DNA of 64,000 nt from Synechococcus sp. A10-1-5-1 (GTDB taxonomy: Bacteria; Cyanobacteriota; Cyanobacteriia; PCC-6307; Cyanobiaceae), in the NCBI RefSeq assembly GCF_023115425.1, contig NZ_CP096032.1:1364001-1428000 (forward strand). Reading direction: 5' to 3'. This document shows positions 23,965-33,203 of the stretch, one piece after another (positions within the stretch are counted from its first letter, which is position 1; the number at the start of each line of letters is the position of its first letter). The position numbers and the translations under genes were made by a program. Below the pieces are notes generated by a model, which was not told the origin of the DNA, did no database searches, and saw only the letters and a list, made by a program, of their open reading frames with translations.

Positions 23965-24938
23965 GGCAAGGAAACAGCTTCAAGCAAACGCGCTGCCGAG
24001 GCAATCGTTGTGTGTTGAAGCACCCATTTCCGAGAGGCCTCAAGCAACTGTTGATAACCAGCTGGATCCGCATCCAATGCGTCCATTTGCTGCCGGAGAT
24101 CAGCCCATCTCTGATAACTGACGCAGTTGACACCCGCAAGCAGTCCATGAGGAGCACAAGCAGCAGGTTTGGCCTCTAACTGCCTGAGACAGGGAACAGC
24201 ACCGGCTGCCGCGATCTCGTAGTGCCTGAGGCAGTCCCAGCCCCCCCGCTTCGTCGTCACAGCAAAGCGCGATGCTGCCAGATCGTCGTAGTAAGCCTGC
24301 TCGGAGGCAAAAGCGTAGGAGGTATGCAAACCGCAGGCTTGGGCGACCTCAGGATCCACGCAATGGCTAGCCAACCGCTGCTGTTTGCTAGAAAGGTCAA
24401 ACGGACGAAGCTTCTCCGCGGGGATAGAAAAACTCGCTGGCAACACTCGACATCGACGGCCTTTACCGGCCTCCCCCTGCCACTCCCGCTTGAAGTAGAG
24501 GCAGAGTCCTGAGCGTATGGGGAAAGGCTGCCAGCCATAACGCCGAACCCGGGTACCGCTGCGGTGAAAAAGACGCGTATCGTCATCCCCATCGAGCAGC
24601 ACTACGGGAACCTGTTGCAGCAGAGGCGCTAAATCCAGGAGTTGCCCCCACTGACGCCAAATCTGACCAATCACAACCAGATCAAACCAACCAGTCTCAA
24701 GCCGCTGGATCACAAAGGTTCGGTCAACCGGACGATCCGATAACAATCCGTAGAGGGTGAACCCATGGCCACGGACGCCAAGTTGTGGTGCAACGGAACA
24801 CGTCTCCTGCCCCGCATACAACACATGCTTACGCGGGTAGTCGACAACTTCAAGCCCCAAGGAAACCAGACCATGCAGAAGGGAGTCGGCGAGATAGTCC
24901 TCTCGAGACTCTGTGAGGAACAAAACCCGGGATATCAA
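23961..24938 (-). CDS. Predicted glycosyltransferase-like protein, unclassified
   Basis: 325 residues from a TTG start (24938) that sits in TTGA, overlapping the stop of the upstream polymerase fragment by four bases. The N-terminus reads ISRVLFLTESREDYLADSLLHGL. The C-terminal half has VTTKRGGWDCLRHYEIAAAGAVPCL, here read as the nucleotide-sugar-facing part of a CgeB/GT-B-like fold (quote split: VTTKRGGWDCLRHYE then IAAAGAVP), and CVSYQRWADLRQQM. The TTG start is supported because a diverged copy of the same N-terminus and the same overlap is found at 31576-31695. I assign it to glycan synthesis by context; donor unknown. Confidence 0.7.
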   Translation of the reverse strand: MISRVLFLTESREDYLADSLLHGLVSLGLEVVDYPRKHVLYAGQETCSVAPQLGVRGHGFTLYGLLSDRPVDRTFVIQRLETGWFDLVVIGQIWRQWGQLLDLAPLLQQVPVVLLDGDDDTRLFHRSGTRVRRYGWQPFPIRSGLCLYFKREWQGEAGKGRRCRVLPASFSIPAEKLRPFDLSSKQQRLASHCVDPEVAQACGLHTSYAFASEQAYYDDLAASRFAVTTKRGGWDCLRHYEIAAAGAVPCLRQLEAKPAACAPHGLLAGVNCVSYQRWADLRQQMDALDADPAGYQQLLEASRKWVLQHTTIASAARLLEAVSLP

Positions 24939-25229
24939 ACCTCTGCCCTCCTCAACCAGCAATAAACAGCGGCACCAATGACCCAAAACAAGAGCAGGTA
25001 TTTCTGTCGTACCCAAAAGGGAGACCACTGCGTATCCGAAGCCGTTCTAAAGGGAAAGGATTGAAGATAGGTAGACGGCAAATGAGCCAGGAAGAGATGG
25101 AAAGAGATGCCAGAAAACCTGAGGCGGGGACAATAAAGATAAAGACGGAACAGAACTTGCACAACGGCTGACAAAAACAGCCAGCCAGCCAGCAAGAATC
25201 CAGGCACGGGGCGGCGCTGCTTGAGATCT
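24862..25229. repeat. Left copy of a diverged 0.37-kb direct repeat (polymerase/GT junction)
   Basis: Aligns almost collinearly with 31620-31977. Shared words include TGCACAACGGCTG (25158-25170 and 31909-31921) and CCTCTGCCCT (24940-24949 and 31697-31706). It spans the end of the polymerase reading frame and the start of the glycosyltransferase reading frame. It marks the left edge of an inserted cassette. Confidence 0.8.
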
Positions 25230-25285
25230 GTGCGGAAGTAAATACAGAAATTAAGTACAGGCTCAAAGTGTATTGCAAATGTCAA
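24935..25285 (-). pseudogene. C-terminal relict of a Wzy-like polymerase
   Basis: An open frame of 116 codons that begins TTG ACA within TTGA, overlapping the upstream GT4 stop by four bases. Its translation aligns with the last part of the full-length polymerase at 31692-33203: SAVVQVLFRL against AAVVQVFFRL, LPSTYLQSFPF against LPATYLQSFPF, LLLFWVIGAAV against LFVFWVIGTAI, ending RRAEV against TRAEA. The first three quarters of the gene are missing. It may still be translated by coupling, but alone it holds only one or two TM segments and cannot be a polymerase. Confidence 0.82.
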
Positions 25286-26514
25286 CGCCAGCAGGAACGA
25301 CGAGATCGAAACTCTTGCAGGATCTGCTGAAGAACTAGCAGAGAAGAACTTAAACTTTGCCTACGCTTTTCCATAAATGCTAAACCTGCCGAAGACAAGC
25401 GAGACCTCTCTAAAGGACTTGTGCAGATTTGAGATAACTTTGCGGCAAGATCAGAAGGGTCATTTAGGTCGACCAAAAGGGCAGCGCCTGCAACAAAAGC
25501 TGAAAGGCTTGGAGAACCAGAGTATATTAGTGGCGTTCCCATTGACAAAGCCTCAAGAGGTGGCAAGTTTGTAGGGCCAAAATAAGTAGGCATAACAAGT
25601 GCGAGTGCATTTTTGTACAAGAAAGTTATATCCGAAGAAGACACGAAGCCAGGCATAATAACTTGATCTTCGAGAGCCAAAGACCTTACTGTGTCTCGTA
25701 TGTACGAAAGATTACCCTTATCTCCACCAACAAAGACAGCCGGGAGGCAAACGTTGTGTTGCTCCCTCAAGATTGATAGGGCTCTTAGAATATATATGTG
25801 GTTCTTATGTGGCCAAAATTGTGCGGGGTAAAAAATAAATGTCTCGGGAACCGAGAACGAACATGTAGTCATATCAGTTGTGACACTCTCTGTTGTTTCT
25901 GTTAGTCGTCCTGACAAGTAAGGTGACTCTTCAAAGGGCACAACATGCACTCGTGACTCATCAAGACCGTATCGACGCTCAGCATTATGCTTACCTAAAG
26001 ATGAATCCACAAGGACAGCTGTTGCACGTGGAAGAGCTGACCGAAAAATACGTTCACGGTGGTGGAACTGACGACTATTACGAACTTCCGGAAACTCAGG
26101 GTCATCTCGATGGGAGAGATCCCAAAGTGTAATTATAAAGTTAAGAGAATCAAGGTCATTGGACCAAGAAGAAGGAGAAAGGAAGTAAACAAGATCAACA
26201 TCGTGGAGACGGAGAAAATGCTCGAAAGGACTATATGGGTAAAACTTACACAAGAAGTTGTAACAGTATGGTTCTGTTATGAATCTCCGAATATAAGAGA
26301 ATGCCAAAGTAAGTCTCGAGGGTGAGAATTCAATGGGAGTAATGTTGATACTACTAAGAGTCTGAAGATTGGAAGGGACAGTCGTAACGAACAGTGGATC
26401 GACTAGTGTTGCGGGAAGGGCTTTTACAAGAAGTACCGCATTAAGGGCTTGCTGAAAACCACCACCACTACGAATTGGCTGATCAAGAATAACAGCAACT
26501 TTAAGTGGCTTCAT
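25282..26514 (-). CDS. Glycosyltransferase family 4
   Basis: Retaining GT-B enzyme of 410 residues. The N-terminal half has ILDQPIRSGGGFQQALNAVL; the C-terminal half has FIFYPAQFWPHKNHIYILRAL, VFVGGDKGN, VIMPGFVSSSDI and a PTYFGPTNLPPLEALSMGTPL segment (the last is the donor-site EX7E region; motif split for length). This pattern matches mannosyltransferase-B-like GT4s. The DNA is AT-rich compared with the genes at 17-25 kb and 32-59 kb. It overlaps the perosamine synthase upstream (ATGA) and the polymerase relict downstream (TTGA). Confidence 0.88.
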   Translation of the reverse strand: MKPLKVAVILDQPIRSGGGFQQALNAVLLVKALPATLVDPLFVTTVPSNLQTLSSINITPIEFSPSRLTLAFSYIRRFITEPYCYNFLCKFYPYSPFEHFLRLHDVDLVYFLSPSSWSNDLDSLNFIITLWDLSHRDDPEFPEVRNSRQFHHRERIFRSALPRATAVLVDSSLGKHNAERRYGLDESRVHVVPFEESPYLSGRLTETTESVTTDMTTCSFSVPETFIFYPAQFWPHKNHIYILRALSILREQHNVCLPAVFVGGDKGNLSYIRDTVRSLALEDQVIMPGFVSSSDITFLYKNALALVMPTYFGPTNLPPLEALSMGTPLIYSGSPSLSAFVAGAALLVDLNDPSDLAAKLSQICTSPLERSRLSSAGLAFMEKRRQSLSSSLLVLQQILQEFRSRRSCWR

Positions 26515-27644
26515 GAGATATAGGGTTCCAAGATTAGATGAATAGACTCTGATACAATTGATATTTGATGGTCGTCAAGGCCGAGGCCAGATGGAATGTA
26601 AAGACCATATTCGTGTAGTGATTCACATGTGGTCAGGTCTGTAGAGTGACGACTCTCATAGTTAGAGAGAACTGGTTGAAGGTGTAACGGGTAGAAGAAT
26701 GGACGAGTTCCAATGCCGTGCCTCTTCAGAGAAGCTGCAAATTCCTTAGCTGAAAGACCAAGGTTGCTATCAAGTACAACAGGATAGACCCAGTAGATGT
26801 TTGAGGCATAAGAGGTTGATGCCACAGGTAGTTTTATTGCAGGAATATCAGAAAGCAACTGGTCATAAGTGGCTCCGATATAGCGTTTGCGGTCAAGTGC
26901 TGTGTCGATTTTTTCTAGCTGAGCAAGGCCGACTGCTGCCTGAAGATTAGACATACGATAATTCCAACCAAGTTCTGTATGTACAAATCGGTTAGATTCC
27001 GAAAAACAAAGATTACGCAGGCTTCTGCATCGTTCGGCAATTCCAGGGTCATCTGTAAGAATCATTCCACCCTCTCCTGTTGTAATGATCTTGTTGGGGT
27101 AGAAACTGAGGGTACTTATATCACCAAAAGAGCCACAACGACGCTCATAATACTTTTGCCCAAGCATCTCAGCAGTATCTTCGATAAGGTGGATACCGTA
27201 CGAATTGCAAATCTCAAGAATAGGGTTTAGATCTACCGGCAACCCGTATATATGAACAGCAATGATGGCTTTTGTACGTGGTGTTATAAGGGACTCGATC
27301 TGGAAAGAGTTGATATTAAATGTATCTGGAAAGCAATCAACAAAAACAGGGGTGGCCCCTGATCGAAGGACCTGGTGAATGCAGGATATGATTGTAAAGG
27401 AGGGAATGATTACTTCGTCACCTGGACCAATATTTAGAGATGCGACCGCTACATCTAGTGCTGCAGTTCCATTAGAAACGGCTATTGCGTATTTGCGGCC
27501 GACATATCGTGCAACATTTTCCTCAAATGCGGACACATAGCCGCCTTCTGAGGAAATCCAGCCAGTTTCGATGCAATCTTGCAGGTATAGAGACTCTTTG
27601 CCTTGCAAGAGAGGAGTATTTACAGGTATAAAGTCGCGCGTCAT
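26511..27644 (-). CDS. per: DegT/DnrJ/EryC1 aminotransferase, probable GDP-perosamine synthase
   Basis: PLP-dependent transamination of a 4-keto sugar nucleotide. The 377 residues include GWISSEGGYVSAFE, VSNGTAALDVAV, the PLP-phenol Asp156 in IEDTAEMLG, and the Schiff-base Lys185 in SFYPNKIITTGEGGM, followed by LGWNYRMSNLQAAVGLAQLE. Overall it reads closest to Per/RfbE proteins, which convert GDP-4-keto-6-deoxymannose and glutamate to GDP-perosamine. The gmd gene at 40298-41470 can supply that substrate. Other 4-amino sugars remain possible. First gene of the minus-strand part of the AT-rich cassette. Confidence 0.85.
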   Translation of the reverse strand: MTRDFIPVNTPLLQGKESLYLQDCIETGWISSEGGYVSAFEENVARYVGRKYAIAVSNGTAALDVAVASLNIGPGDEVIIPSFTIISCIHQVLRSGATPVFVDCFPDTFNINSFQIESLITPRTKAIIAVHIYGLPVDLNPILEICNSYGIHLIEDTAEMLGQKYYERRCGSFGDISTLSFYPNKIITTGEGGMILTDDPGIAERCRSLRNLCFSESNRFVHTELGWNYRMSNLQAAVGLAQLEKIDTALDRKRYIGATYDQLLSDIPAIKLPVASTSYASNIYWVYPVVLDSNLGLSAKEFAASLKRHGIGTRPFFYPLHLQPVLSNYESRHSTDLTTCESLHEYGLYIPSGLGLDDHQISIVSESIHLILEPYIS

Positions 27645-27682
27645 TGCAGTGGCTCTAATAGAGTAAGTGTAACGGAAAAAGG

Positions 27683-28105
27683 CTAAAACCGCTCCTTATC
27701 AGACTCCCCAGCATAGGGCCCCTGCTTGACTTCGATGATCTCGGCTTCTTCTAAGATTTTGAAACCATGACCTCCACGTGCCAATACTAATATATCGCCT
27801 GCACTTAGTATAAGACTAGAAATGTACTCTTTTGTCCTCTCATAGAAATCAACCTGCACGCGACCGGATCGAAGGATAAGCACTTCGCTGGTGAAGCTGA
27901 TGCTTCTCGATGTGGGAAGGTGAATATGTGGGGTAATAACGTGGCCGGAGGGTCTCCTCATAAGCCCAAGCTGTTGAGAAAATGAATCAGGAGTCAAGAA
28001 CTCAATAGGGGATTGCAAGGAGTATGAAGCTGACACATATATAGCAAGGATCTCGGATGGCGAATTACGAGACGCTATTTCGAGTATACCTCGGCTGTTG
28101 GTCAT
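27683..28105 (-). CDS. Cupin-fold protein of surface-glycan clusters
   Basis: 140 residues with a small beta-barrel pattern: HVITPHIHLPTSRSI, SEVLILRSGRVQVDFY, a LSAGDILVLARGGHGFKILE strand pair, and a conserved end EVKQGPYAGESDKERF. His residues in the first motif could bind a metal. This type often sits beside sugar aminotransferases and glycosyltransferases in O-antigen loci; its reaction is not known to me. It does not look like the FdtA 3,4-ketoisomerase. It lies 38 bp upstream of the perosamine synthase and diverges from the acyltransferase gene. Confidence 0.65.
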   Translation of the reverse strand: MTNSRGILEIASRNSPSEILAIYVSASYSLQSPIEFLTPDSFSQQLGLMRRPSGHVITPHIHLPTSRSISFTSEVLILRSGRVQVDFYERTKEYISSLILSAGDILVLARGGHGFKILEEAEIIEVKQGPYAGESDKERF

Positions 28106-28248
28106 CTTGTTAGAATGTACGCCTTATCTTAGCATGATAAGTGGGAGAACATGGGGATGAAAACCAGGAAAGGCGAATCTATTTTCGATTTTGTTGGGCG
28201 CAAAGGCGAGATTGTGCAAGAATGATCTGAACTAGGAGTTCAGAGCGC
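28106..28248. promoter_or_regulatory. Divergent promoter region with inverted repeat 28123-28141
   Basis: 143 bp between two divergent cassette genes. CTTATC (28123-28128) and GATAAG (28136-28141) form an inverted repeat around TTAGCAT. A GGAG box lies before the plus-strand ATG at 28249. Both promoters of the cassette should be here; no specific -10 is called. Confidence 0.4.
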
Positions 28249-28950
28249 ATGAGGCGTTCGTTCGTCAATCAAGTAGCAAAAGCTTTCTTGACGCCAGCGA
28301 TTATTGCTAGAGATGTGGCCAAGATGGTACTGATTTACATGCCTGGCACGACTGGCATAATATTAAGACGGGCTTATTACAAGCTAAGATTTAAGTCCTG
28401 CGGCAAAAGGTTTACTGTGCTATCTGGCGTTGAGATAGAAGGCTGCAAATTCATAAGCGTAGGGGACAACGTAATGATAGACCGTGGATGTATTATATCG
28501 TCTGGAGCAGAACTGTCCGGTAATGTGTTGCACGGAAAAGAAGTAGGCCTTTACAATCAGTTGGGTGCAGTGCACATTGGGGATAACGTGCATATATGTC
28601 AGCATTGCATATTAATGGGCTACGGAGGGATCTCGATTGGAGACAATTGCGTTCTAAGTGCATGCACAAAGCTATATTCACTGTCAAGCCTACACGTCAA
28701 CCCTAATGACAAGGCAGCGGTCATTTCGGTATATCCTTATGAGAAAGGATATTTCAGGCTAGGAAAGATTTCGATAGGCTTTAATACATGGATTGGGTTA
28801 AACTGTATAGTAATGCCAGGAGTAGATATAGGTGAGAATACTTTCTGCGTTTCAAACTCTGTGGTTACCCGTGACTTAGCAAGTAACTCATACGCGACCG
28901 GTCACCCAGCTCATGCCATTGGCTTACGTTTCCAGGAAAGTCCTTCATGA
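28249..28950 (+). CDS. Hexapeptide-repeat acyltransferase (left-handed beta-helix)
   Basis: Predicted O- or N-acetyltransferase. The 233 residues show an N-terminal helical part (about 1-50), then hexapeptide repeats such as VEIEGCKFISVGDNVMID, AVHIGDNVHICQHC, ISIGDNCVLSA, and ISIGFNTWIGLNCIVMPGVDIG (shortened), closing with the NSVVTRDLASNSYATGHPA cap. Such enzymes use acetyl-CoA. With perosamine synthase next door, N-acylation of perosamine is one option, but O-acetylation of the glycan is equally likely. AT-rich. Confidence 0.82.
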   Translation: MRRSFVNQVAKAFLTPAIIARDVAKMVLIYMPGTTGIILRRAYYKLRFKSCGKRFTVLSGVEIEGCKFISVGDNVMIDRGCIISSGAELSGNVLHGKEVGLYNQLGAVHIGDNVHICQHCILMGYGGISIGDNCVLSACTKLYSLSSLHVNPNDKAAVISVYPYEKGYFRLGKISIGFNTWIGLNCIVMPGVDIGENTFCVSNSVVTRDLASNSYATGHPAHAIGLRFQESPS

Positions 28951-29466
28951 ATGGATCTGTTGGAGAAAGCCAGCAGTAGAGTATCAACTGATTCTTAAGT
29001 TGTGATCTAAAAGCTTAGTAGCCGCCAAGATGCCAGAGGTATTCCCATATGAAGTATAAGAGACATTGGATGTAAAGGCAAAAGCATTTAAATGCACGAT
29101 ATAATTTACTCTCGACTACAGACCTTGCGGTGAGTTTAGATTTGACAACTCATATGGTTCAGATCGAATAGGCAATGGTCGGGCAGAATAGGACACTGCG
29201 GCTTGTGTTCAAACATTAAAGTGGGATAGCACCGGTGAAAATGCTGAATTCATAGCAAATGGAACAGATGGATCAGTAATGATAGATTTGTATTGTTGAT
29301 AGGCGATTAGACAGCAGGCTCTTTACAAGGACTAGCACCGCCAATATGGTAATGAGTACTTAATGGTATTATGTATTTGGGAATAATAGAGGTGGATACT
29401 TTATCCACGCATACACTGAGATGTATCCTACTCTTACGATAGGATGCATCAAGAGAGAGAGACTCC
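28951..29466. other. AT-rich intergenic stretch, probably decayed sequence
   Basis: No intact gene. One plus-strand frame at about 29115-29300 reads like protein (it includes FRFDNSYGSDRIGNGRAE and WDSTGENAEFIANGTDG) but has an internal TAG and ends in two stops, so it may be a gene remnant or chance. AGAGAGAGA before 29467 could act as the ribosome binding site for the next gene. Confidence 0.3.
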
Positions 29467-30687
29467 ATGAGCAGTTATTACAATGTCTATTGCATCTCAA
29501 GCCCGCAAGAAGCTCTGGCTGTTAAACGTGTCAGCAGAGATTTCCAGATTGACGTCTGTTATGCAATTAAGTATCAGGCTTGCACTGACGGATTATATTA
29601 TGACGTAATACGATCAATACTAAATGATCAAAAGGTCGAGTTCTTAGAGCTTGGTCTTCGCAATCATCGAATAGAAGTGAATAGTTGTCGGTTGGCCAAG
29701 GCTTTAAAAGCGGTCGTATGGAATTTACAAAGTATAAGAAGAGTCATTTCTCATATTGAGGAAGAAGTTGCTGCATCAGCACGAGGGCCTCAACCAGTTA
29801 TCAGATTGTTTGCTCAAAAAGATTCTCCTATCTTTGACCTTATGAAGTATCAGGGTGATTATGAGTGCATCAACATTGATCACTGTCCATCAGATGCAGG
29901 ATCCAGGGAGTTACTTGGTAGTCAAAGAATGCAAGACAATGGGTTCAAGATATTAAGCAAGTTCAGGCATATCTTATTAGAAGACGGTATCACACTAGAA
30001 AGTCTGCTAAAGGTTTGTCGGTGGTCTTGCAGGACTGTGTGTAGGTTTCTCTTTGTTGGTGCTGTACGTACCGTCTACACTGATTTTTGCAAAGATAGCA
30101 TCGCAAAGTGCGGGTATAGCTGGATCCCAGCACGAGCTCATAGTCTTTTAGAATATAAAGACCTGCAGGTCTTCGTAGAATTAAAGGATGGTGGCAGGTT
30201 GATTGCCAATGGAAGCTGCATCTTACTGGTTGAGCACATTGCTCAGTATACGAATATCCATGAGTTGCATGAGGAGTTGAGCAAGAAAGACATGGTATCT
30301 ATCTATACTCGGATGTGCAAGTATCACTGCTTTACAAATGAACTAATACTCTTAAAACTGCACCCGGCAGTTGAAGAGTTTGCTTCCAAGTCAAGCATTA
30401 GACTATATGCAGATAGCATAATTAGTCGCTTAGCGGAGATCGGCTACAATAGAGTGTACTTGATAAGCGACTACATAGATGATGAGGTGAAGTCTGTGTA
30501 CCCAATCGAGTGCCTAAAGAAGTGCCTGAGAGTAAAAAAAGTTGTTGGGATATACAGTTCTGTGATGGTTAACATGTCTTGCTTTGAAGACGTAAGGATA
30601 ATAAGTGACTGCAGGGAAGTATCGTTCTTTAGAGACTTGCGAGACCGTCAGTCACGATTGACGAACTTCACGTTCGAGGCTTATTGA
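29467..30687 (+). CDS. Possible sialyltransferase-fold (GT-B, GT52/polysialyltransferase-like) glycosyltransferase
   Basis: 406 residues, no TM helix and no signal peptide. Three short motifs fall in the order seen in bacterial CMP-sialic-acid GT-B enzymes: an acidic LLEDG (170-174), LKLHP (296-300) and a GIYSS pair (361-365, serines 364-365). In those families the D/E-D/E-G residue is the catalytic base, and HP and SS bind CMP. The rest of the protein is not recognisable to me, and no neuB/neuA is present. CMP-Kdo from kdsA-kdsB is a possible donor (inference). AT-rich, in a cassette that interrupts an older operon. Confidence in a nucleotide-sugar transferase is moderate, in the exact family low. 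Confidence 0.5.
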   Translation: MSSYYNVYCISSPQEALAVKRVSRDFQIDVCYAIKYQACTDGLYYDVIRSILNDQKVEFLELGLRNHRIEVNSCRLAKALKAVVWNLQSIRRVISHIEEEVAASARGPQPVIRLFAQKDSPIFDLMKYQGDYECINIDHCPSDAGSRELLGSQRMQDNGFKILSKFRHILLEDGITLESLLKVCRWSCRTVCRFLFVGAVRTVYTDFCKDSIAKCGYSWIPARAHSLLEYKDLQVFVELKDGGRLIANGSCILLVEHIAQYTNIHELHEELSKKDMVSIYTRMCKYHCFTNELILLKLHPAVEEFASKSSIRLYADSIISRLAEIGYNRVYLISDYIDDEVKSVYPIECLKKCLRVKKVVGIYSSVMVNMSCFEDVRIISDCREVSFFRDLRDRQSRLTNFTFEAY

Positions 30688-31575
30688 TGTTTACTGCGAA
30701 TAGGTTTGATAAAGTGGTTTTTCGTTGTCGCAGTCAGACACAGGAACGCGCCTGCAAAGTTGAACGGCTAGGATACATTATGAATAGATTAGATTAACGA
30801 TAAGCGTTGAAACACCTCTCTACGTAGACGCCTAAAGCAGCTCTAGCTTCTTTCGGCAAGAGGATTCTTCGTTGCAAATATAGAGATCCTATCTCATGAG
30901 TCCTTCTTTTTGGTCACCACTCAGATCGGTGAAGACTTTCCATAGAGATCACATTGACTTCTTGTATGACATGCTAAAGACTTATCTAGTTGCATTGTCT
31001 CGGCAGGATTTGCAGGAGAAGTGAGATTTCGAGTCGTCATGCTACAGGATTCAACTCCGACGCTCTAACCTCACATACCGTGCATACTCAGCCCAAGACC
31101 AGACTTATATCTATTAGTTGGGTCCTATGCATCGTTAAATTCAGAAAGCTGATCCATCGGTTGATCTATAAGAGCTGACGTTGATCAGCCCCGCACCACT
31201 GAAAAGTGGCTGGCCTGCAATTGCGCTGTCCACTCAGCCGCCTTAGTGGATCGACGCAAAAGGCAGCTCAGCCACCGGTTAACGCTCGATCAACAGCAAC
31301 TTCAGGAAGGCATAGGCGTCATCATCGCTGTACCCTCAGGCGCAGCACCAGGCTGATTGCCGCACCTCTTTCAACCGTGGGGCGCACCATCAGGGTCAGG
31401 GACTTTGCAAGTCTCAAACCCCTGCAGCAACCACCAATGCCGGATAAACCTTCAAGATGATCCATATCAATGTCAATCAGCTTGCAAGCATTAACAAATG
31501 GTGCACCGGATCACTGTGGAGAGCGTGGTCTTAGCCGCTGCAATAGTGAGGGCTTCGGAAGAAACCCGTCGATAT
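30688..31575. other. Cassette right flank without an intact gene
   Basis: Left part (to about 31180) is AT-rich and featureless apart from a 7-bp inverted repeat GCTGATC/GATCAGC (31148-31154 and 31183-31189). From about 31190 the DNA becomes GC-rich and full of stops on both strands. Short minus-strand runs read like protein (for example TKAAEWTAQLQASHFSVVRG, about 31192-31251), which may be the tail of a decayed mobile element or gene. I cannot assign it. Confidence 0.35.
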
Positions 31576-31695
31576 TCATGACTCAACATGGTGGATTAGA
31601 CGGAATTCTTCGGCGATGAGAATCAGACCACGCAGTAGTGAATGGGCGAGGCAGTCCTGACAGGACTCATTCAGATACAAGACCCTCGAAATCAA
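31576..31695 (-). pseudogene. 39-codon N-terminal relict of the glycosyltransferase at 23961-24938
   Basis: Starts TTG within TTGA at the stop of the intact polymerase, exactly as the intact gene does at its own polymerase fragment. It reads ISRVLYLNESCQDCLAHSLLRGL against ISRVLFLTESREDYLADSLLHGL in the intact copy (each part is about 23 residues; similarity covers the first 27 or so). It then loses similarity and ends at a TGA. It is a truncated duplicate that marks the right edge of the inserted cassette. Confidence 0.8.
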
Positions 31696-31977
31696 GCCTC
31701 TGCCCTAGTGAACCAATGGTCAATAGCGGTACCAATCACCCAGAAGACGAATAGGTATTTTGGCAATTCCCAAAGCAAAGCCCAGGCAGTCTCCGAAACA
31801 GTTCCGAAGGGAAAAGACTGCAGATAGGTCGCCGGCAGGAGAACCACCAAGATCTGGAATGTGCTTCCTGGAACGCTGATGCTGCGATACCAAAGACGGA
31901 AGAAGACCTGCACAACGGCTGCCACTACCAGCGAGCCCAGCAATAATCCAAGCACAGACCAGCGCCTCATGAGATCT
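31620..31977. repeat. Right copy of the diverged direct repeat (polymerase/GT junction)
   Basis: Partner of 24862-25229, about 6.75 kb away in the same orientation. The copies are clearly related but far from identical, so the event is old or joined DNA from diverged strains. Confidence 0.8.
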
Positions 31978-33203
31978 GCAGGCAGGCTGAAGCAGGGGAA
32001 CCAAACCTGGGTCAAAGGGCTGGGCTTCACCCGCTGAAGTTGCTTGGCAATCAGATGTCCATCAAATAGAACGGGTTGGTCAGGCAAGACATGCTTTGGC
32101 ACCCAGAGATAAACCAAGCTGCCTAAGCCCCGAGAACCGACCAGGGGCTGGTCTCGGTTTTCGGGGGTGAAGAGGTAGGGGTCATGGCAGGCATAGAGAT
32201 CCCGACCCAACCAGCGCGCCTTAGCCAACAACGGCTCTGGTTGTATCAAGGACGAACCAATAGACTGAAGGCGGCCAGTCCAGCTATCAGCCCGCTGAAA
32301 AGCGGAACTCTCCCGTACAACATAAATCAGCGGAGACAACACTAGAACAAGCACCGCCAAAGCCAGTGCAAAGCAACGCAAGCGGCGGGGGTCGCTCAGG
32401 ACAAACCAGAGGCCAAAAAGTAAAAGCAGAAATGGATAAAACAGCAACCCCCTTGATCCGCTCAACAGAGCTGCTGCCAGAAAAGCGAGCATCTCGGCGC
32501 CTAAAACCCAACGCCCCAAACGGTTCAGGAGTCGCCACCAGAGAGGAAATAGTAAAAACCAGAGGTCACGTAAGCGTGAAAATGCCGCCACAGGCGTGTC
32601 CAAGCGCCAAAGCTGCTGGGTCCAGCTCATATAGGCGTCGACCTGACGGTCAAAAGCACCGGAGAGCACTGACAGGGTGATGTAGACCGCCATGTAGAGG
32701 CTCAGAAGCACACCTAGAGCGGTCAGTTGCGCACGCAATCGAGGCTGGTTGATCGCTTCCACAGACCATGACGCCTGGGGCAGAGCCCTCGCCGCTTGGG
32801 CAATCGCCCGCCGCTGCGGCAAGGCCAATAGCAGCAATGCAGCCGTCAGGCTCAACCAAAGCAGCTGCGCCGGCGGCCCGTAGCGGATCCAGATCTCGAC
32901 AAAAGCATGACCTCCACTGCCTCCCAATGCCAAGAACAGTGGACCAAGCCCCCAGCGCAGACATAGGCCAATGAAAAGCACTGTGAGCGGTGGCAGGGGC
33001 AGTGCTTGAAGCAACGGTGCCTCTAACCACAACGCAACGGTCAAACCCCAGACCGCGGTGAATCCCAGCAATGCCAACCAGGGCTGCTGCCAGGTCAGCG
33101 GCAGGCTCAGCAGCCAAAGACCGAGACAAGCCAGCGCTGAGCGCTGGGGCTGCAGGACCCAGGGGGAAGCCTGACCCAATAGCTGCTGCAAACGGGAACG
33201 CAT
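31692..33203 (-). CDS. Wzy-like O-antigen/oligosaccharide polymerase (membrane protein)
   Basis: 503 residues from the ATG at 33203 (TGATG with the upstream GT2). About 11-12 TM helices, with a large periplasmic loop in the second half (about 320-400) carrying charged and aromatic residues (ARWLGRDLYACHDPYLFTP) and an SRGLLFYPFLLLLFG helix. The oligosaccharide-repeat-unit polymerase (OrfH/Wzy-like) family has this architecture but low sequence conservation, so the call rests on topology and place. A C-terminal fragment of a related gene is at 24935-25285. The glycosyltransferase that should follow it is reduced to a relict. Confidence 0.7.
   Translation of the reverse strand: MRSRLQQLLGQASPWVLQPQRSALACLGLWLLSLPLTWQQPWLALLGFTAVWGLTVALWLEAPLLQALPLPPLTVLFIGLCLRWGLGPLFLALGGSGGHAFVEIWIRYGPPAQLLWLSLTAALLLLALPQRRAIAQAARALPQASWSVEAINQPRLRAQLTALGVLLSLYMAVYITLSVLSGAFDRQVDAYMSWTQQLWRLDTPVAAFSRLRDLWFLLFPLWWRLLNRLGRWVLGAEMLAFLAAALLSGSRGLLFYPFLLLLFGLWFVLSDPRRLRCFALALAVLVLVLSPLIYVVRESSAFQRADSWTGRLQSIGSSLIQPEPLLAKARWLGRDLYACHDPYLFTPENRDQPLVGSRGLGSLVYLWVPKHVLPDQPVLFDGHLIAKQLQRVKPSPLTQVWFPCFSLPADLMRRWSVLGLLLGSLVVAAVVQVFFRLWYRSISVPGSTFQILVVLLPATYLQSFPFGTVSETAWALLWELPKYLFVFWVIGTAIDHWFTRAEA

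Follow-up and report, generated by a model that had tools for sequence, protein, structure and literature searches.

A sialyltransferase-like reading frame in a low-GC block

The window analysed here, a stretch of 64,000 nt from Synechococcus sp. A10-1-5-1 (contig NZ_CP096032.1, positions 1,364,001 to 1,428,000), contains an open reading frame, hereafter the target, that lies within a block of low GC content (Table 1). The reading frame had been proposed in an earlier note on the same DNA and proved to be real. It is stop-free over 406 codons at 41.5% GC, shows codon-position GC structure with the lowest GC at position 2, and is preceded directly 5′ of its ATG by the purine-rich stretch AAGAGAGAGAG.

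The low-GC block is enclosed by two diverged direct copies of the terminal (3′) part of a polymerase-like gene (24864–25230 and 31621–31978; 69% identical), the left one of which is a remnant. We considered the DegT-family aminotransferase of the block as a LegC and dropped this assignment, since it shares 30% identity with the LegC found elsewhere in this genome and scores under the cut-off. The target has no orthologue in the 24 other genomes of the genus, so that the block looks acquired or strain-variable. Close homologues were found neither in plasmids or phages nor in viral or genome contigs, the latter searched with poor patterns derived from a two-row alignment, and 299 other genomes of the family and 385 of the phylum gave weak matches at most. 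Four individual matches were taken to be due to chance, three of them (G122, G307, G461) with frames broken by stops and one (G499) falling in an oxidoreductase-like ORF. Likewise, neither the target nor the DNA around it had a significant match in PHROGs, NCBIfam or Rfam.

Table 1. Features of the low-GC block and motif boxes of the target protein (coordinates are window positions; residue numbers refer to the target protein)
Feature	Coordinates	Strand	Remarks
Low-GC block holding the target	25231..31620		43.9% GC vs 54–58% in the flanks
GT4-type glycosyltransferase	25282..26514	-	
DegT-family aminotransferase, LegC-like	26511..27644	-	325 bits vs LegC cut-off of 420
WbuC-like cupin	27683..28105	-	29 bits vs cut-off of 42
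Hexapeptide-repeat acyltransferase	28249..28950	+	Upstream of the target on the same strand
Target, sialyltransferase-like protein of predicted GT-B fold	29467..30687	+	ORF, 406 aa, ATG start
N-terminal box SSPQ, residues 11–14	29497..29508	+	In register with the TSGN/NGxWQ box of relatives
EDG, residues 172–174 (D/E-D/E-G motif)	29980..29988	+	D173, presumed catalytic base (MhPST E153); E172, MhPST E152
KLHP, residues 297–300 ((K/R)XHP motif)	30355..30366	+	K297, presumed cytosine contact (MhPST K289); H299, presumed phosphate contact (MhPST H291)
PIE, residues 346–348	30502..30510	+	E348, presumed ribose-binding glutamate (MhPST E323)
SS, residues 364–365 (phosphate-binding S-S/T motif)	30556..30561	+	MhPST S339/T340

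Motif boxes, family relationship and predicted fold

Three motifs had led the earlier note to see in the target a GT-B transferase for CMP-sugars that resembles the bacterial sialyltransferases, and their positions are exact (LLEDG at residues 170–174, LKLHP at 296–300, GIYSS at 361–365). Shuffling the target protein reproduced their order and rough spacing in 0.19% of cases. Among the 91 stop-to-stop frames of the window with at least 150 aa, two had it, namely the target and one on the reverse strand that lacks the fuller pattern. The SSPQ and PIE boxes come in addition to these three and went unremarked in the earlier note. A stricter pattern, [DE][DE]G ... [KR]xHP ... P[ILV]E-15-S[ST], occurred in none of 200,000 shuffles and, among the frames of the window, in the target ORF alone; it is descriptive, since it was drawn up after seeing the target protein.

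The boxes can be read against MhPST, a GT38 enzyme of solved structure, in which K289 contacts the cytosine, E323 the ribose and H291, S339 and T340 the phosphate, and in which E153 is the catalytic base, helped by E152 (PMC5517516). In the meningococcal enzyme, mutations in the D/E-D/E-G and HP motifs abolish or impair activity (PMC2169525). By alignment, each of the seven MhPST residues for donor binding and catalysis has a match in the target (K297, H299, E348, S364, S365, E172 and D173). The distance from the glutamate to the serine is 16 residues in both proteins, whereas the distance from the histidine to the glutamate is 49 residues in the target and 32 in MhPST, so that the segment from HP to PIE is longer by ∼17 residues in the target. 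More generally, the polysialyltransferases of GT38/PF07388 (MhPST 5wc6/5wcn, NmB-polyST, NeuS) share with the target EDG, KxHP, P[IV]E and S-S/T in the same order; in contrast to them, nothing here points to the target being a polymerase or using Neu5Ac.

The single relevant Pfam match of the target was to PF07388 (alpha-2,8-polysialyltransferase; E 0.07, residues 271–377). At 13.1 bits it misses the gathering cut-off of 23.3, and the target is therefore not a formal member of this family. A phylum-wide search with the PF07388 model turned up relatives in 41 of 386 genomes, and a few were also seen in the family of the host. Against a profile of 24 relatives, the single target sequence aligned over residues 269–375, that is, in its C-terminal half, with P = 1.5e-5 (hhalign), well apart from the values of 0.11–0.91 obtained with five shuffles and the reversed target; profile homology to PF07388-type proteins thus exceeds the shuffled controls. 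A narrower profile gave P = 0.0027 with the HP region shifted, and in an hmmsearch with the profile of 12 relatives alone the target was not picked out of its own genome. In a default MAFFT alignment of the target with 12 PF07388 relatives, SSPQ, EDG, KLHP, PIE and SS were all in register, so that D/E-D/E-G, (K/R)XHP, the ribose-binding glutamate and S-S/T line up with those of members. Of nine columns invariant among the 12 relatives, seven hold the same residue in the target (G174, K297, H299, P300, P346, E348 and S364), at an overall identity of 11–16%. An initial alignment with the highest-scoring relatives was discarded because its HP box was misaligned. The nearest relative, L041, was found with an E-value of 1.8e-4 in a small set.

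Other families gave no match to the target. This holds for the GT52/GT80 models PF07922, PF11477 and PF05855 up to E 10 (the HMMER filters may lose weak matches), for PF04464 and other GT-B families of Pfam even at E 10, and for PF01973 (Maf). The three motifs are genuine and in register with a known family, and PF07388/GT38 is detectably the nearest one, although the earlier note had held that no family could be recognised. The best reading of the sequence is that of a strongly diverged protein that would work like an inverting CMP-sugar transferase of the GT38/GT52 type. PF07388-like domains abound in f31, a different family of this phylum (L029, L030, L036, L037, L039, L042), where some form the C-terminus of ∼650–830-aa proteins, behind another N-terminal part.

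A structure predicted with AlphaFold2 on a 13-row alignment (mean pLDDT 59, pTM 0.62) is compatible with a GT-B fold. In this model, the boxes lie at strand ends as expected: a strand at 167–171 is followed by EDG and a strand at 293–297 by HP, PIE lies at the start of a helix at 347–354, and a strand at 356–361 leads to SS. The best solved match was MhPST (5wc6; Z 15.3, 292 residues aligned) for a model built on the same relatives; since the alignment behind it consists of the PF07388-type proteins themselves, the fold evidence is partly circular. UDP-GlcNAc 2-epimerases and other GT-B folds followed with Z of at most 13.9, and GT80 sialyltransferases with ∼12, whereas in the ranking by Foldseek alone 2-epimerases came out on top, with a GT52 enzyme in fourth place. 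Folded alone, without an alignment, the target reached a pLDDT of 31 and gave no usable model. The lipooligosaccharide sialyltransferases of GT52/GT80 (NST 2yk5, PmST1 2ihk) resemble the target in D/E-D/E-G, HP and the predicted GT-B fold and are among its fold neighbours; they differ in the missing Pfam match up to E 10 and in fold scores lower than that of MhPST.

Nonulosonate and Kdo genes in the genome and around relatives

No gene for a nonulosonate synthase or CMP-synthetase adjoins the target. As far as tested, the window as a whole also lacks sialic acid genes, as the earlier note had stated; the rest of the genome does have them. On the same contig, outside the window and ∼90 kb from the target, a Leg-type cluster (∼1.482–1.491 Mb; L017:10041-18924) encodes LegB, LegC, NeuB, NeuC and NeuD above curated cut-offs, together with a PseF/PtmB-like CMP-synthetase and PtmA-like and PtmE-like genes. 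It lies between purF-like and lysC-like genes and contains no glycosyltransferase. From pathway knowledge, we take the cluster to be a CMP-legionaminic-acid-type set, with the exact sugar presumed. The genome thus holds a complete-looking CMP-legionaminate-type pathway and, as expected for the host of a CMP-nonulosonate transferase, CMP-nonulosonate biosynthesis and the target occur together. LegB is present in 3 of 25 genomes of the genus. Two genus mates have it without the target and without any PF07388 match, so that the pairing of target and Leg genes is not obligatory and the use of Leg does not need the target. In a second low-GC block at ∼1.355–1.358 Mb (L016:5097-8261), an 811-aa MptE-like/Maf-like protein is encoded beside a PseF-like CMP-synthetase and is another possible user of a CMP-nonulosonate.

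The neighbourhoods of the relatives are also rich in nonulosonate genes. NeuB/NeuC/NeuA-like genes were found around 11 of 20 relatives (∼7 kb on each side where the contig allows); 20 control stretches taken from these genomes, some of them shorter, had none. Indeed, L041, the relative nearest to the target, directly follows a NeuB gene. Two other relatives, L026 and L034, adjoin kdsA and a kdsC-like gene, and for this reason Kdo-linked members may exist within the bacterial sialyltransferase superfamily. Such a tandem of kdsA, a kdsC-like gene and a PF07388-like gene stands in two cyanobacteria besides the host (L067:6994-9590 and L072:5347-7992).

The window carries kdsA and kdsB, as the earlier note had reported; they lie at its left end. 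From these genes, and from the lack of sialic acid genes in the window, it had inferred CMP-Kdo as the donor. However, the genome encodes KpsC and KpsS ∼30–34 kb left of the window, which accounts for the kds genes; with KpsM/T/E/D-like export genes, the kps genes lie ∼23–34 kb left of the window.

Proposed function and alternative readings

We propose, with a probability of about 0.62, that the target is an inverting GT-B CMP-nonulosonate transferase in the bacterial sialyltransferase superfamily, near PF07388/GT38, that acts on a surface polysaccharide and most likely uses a legionaminic-type donor. Here we infer the fold, the activity, the donor and the acceptor, and likewise whether a single sugar or a polymer is added. 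By analogy with MhPST, CMP would bind to the C-terminal Rossmann domain, with K297 on the cytosine and E348 on the ribose, while H299 together with S364/S365 would hold the phosphate. The base would be D173 in the EDG loop: once deprotonated by it, the acceptor hydroxyl would attack the donor at C2 and invert its configuration. The CMP leaving group would be stabilised by H299. A legionaminic-type acid could in this way pass from a CMP donor made elsewhere in the genome to a growing surface polysaccharide.

The same CMP site could instead accept CMP-Kdo, making the target a Kdo transferase that acts on LPS or capsule. Several observations fit this reading, which we nevertheless consider improbable: the kds genes in the window, the tandem genes of the two other cyanobacteria, and the (K/R)XHP motif, common to sialyl- and Kdo transferases and present in the target as K297-L-H299-P300. 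Some Kdo transferases, too, have a C-terminal domain like that of GT38, and one of this class, KrkA, matches GT38 (5wcn) with a DALI Z of 10.2, so that likeness to GT38 alone cannot separate the two classes. Nor can EDG plus HP, since the KpsC of this genome has both. A QXXXD motif ∼33 residues before HP is common to the known retaining Kdo transferases (PMC12887879, PMC9587256). In the target, QXXXD is absent 20–45 residues before KxHP, whereas in this genome it is found in KpsS and in each of the two KpsC modules. The retaining beta-Kdo transferases of GT99/GT107/GT140 (WbbB, KpsC, KrkA) thus share (K/R)XHP with the target, and their QXXXD nucleophile is missing from it. Furthermore, the target showed no similarity above shuffles to the profile of the kdsA-linked relatives L026 and L034 (score 14.5, shuffles up to 22.1). 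Kdo is therefore the weaker donor, with QXXXD missing from the target and present in KpsC and KpsS, which already explain the kds genes; together with the CMP-legionaminate-type pathway elsewhere in the genome, this speaks against CMP-Kdo as the favoured donor, though an inverting Kdo transferase would still be conceivable. The L067 and L072 genes would be better candidates than the target for the branch of Kdo transferases that the earlier note had suggested.

A GT-B transferase with another donor (TagB/TagF-like CDP-glycerol or a nucleotide-diphosphate sugar), carrying DEG and HP by chance, has a slim probability. There is a precedent in SpsB of B. subtilis, whose TagB domain has DEG and HP and which is dispensable for legionaminic acid transfer (PMC7439481), and the solved neighbours of the model include UDP-GlcNAc 2-epimerases and UDP-sugar transferases. 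Against this, PF04464 and the other GT-B families of Pfam remained unmatched, and the PIE glutamate with its 16-residue spacing to SS fits the CMP site of MhPST. Slimmer still is the chance that the legionaminic-type sugar is used by the 811-aa protein only, with the target idle or working on another nonulosonate. This would agree with the CMP-synthetase beside the gene for that protein (L016 5097-7532), the MptE-like match of which is weak, and with LegB in genus mates that lack the target; the intact reading frame and catalytic positions of the target, on the other hand, make a dead gene unlikely.

If a legionaminic-type CMP-nonulosonate transferase is indeed encoded, it would share its likely donor class with the Maf-type legionaminyl/pseudaminyl transferases (PF01973), which belong to a different family and have protein acceptors. 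According to a 2020 paper, no bacterial enzyme that moves Leg to the cell surface had been reported by then (PMC7439481); later work points to Maf proteins that act on flagellin. Polysaccharide-directed legionaminic-type transferases are poorly known, and a picocyanobacterium that is free-living and non-pathogenic, and that combines a seemingly complete set of CMP-Leg-type genes with a kps capsule locus and an enzyme resembling sialyltransferases, would be a clean test system. It is a doubtful further step that the target founds a new glycosyltransferase family, one of legionaminic-type transferases that act on a kps-type capsule and draw their donor from an unlinked cluster without a transferase. 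Poly-Kdo-linked capsules in cyanobacteria were called into question by a 2015 survey (PMC4594306), to which the kps capsule locus described here is also relevant. As a side observation on this system, KpsS (L057:9922-11955) apparently carries a fused acyltransferase domain of the PlsC type (PF01553, residues 492–602), which perhaps acts on the lipid anchor.
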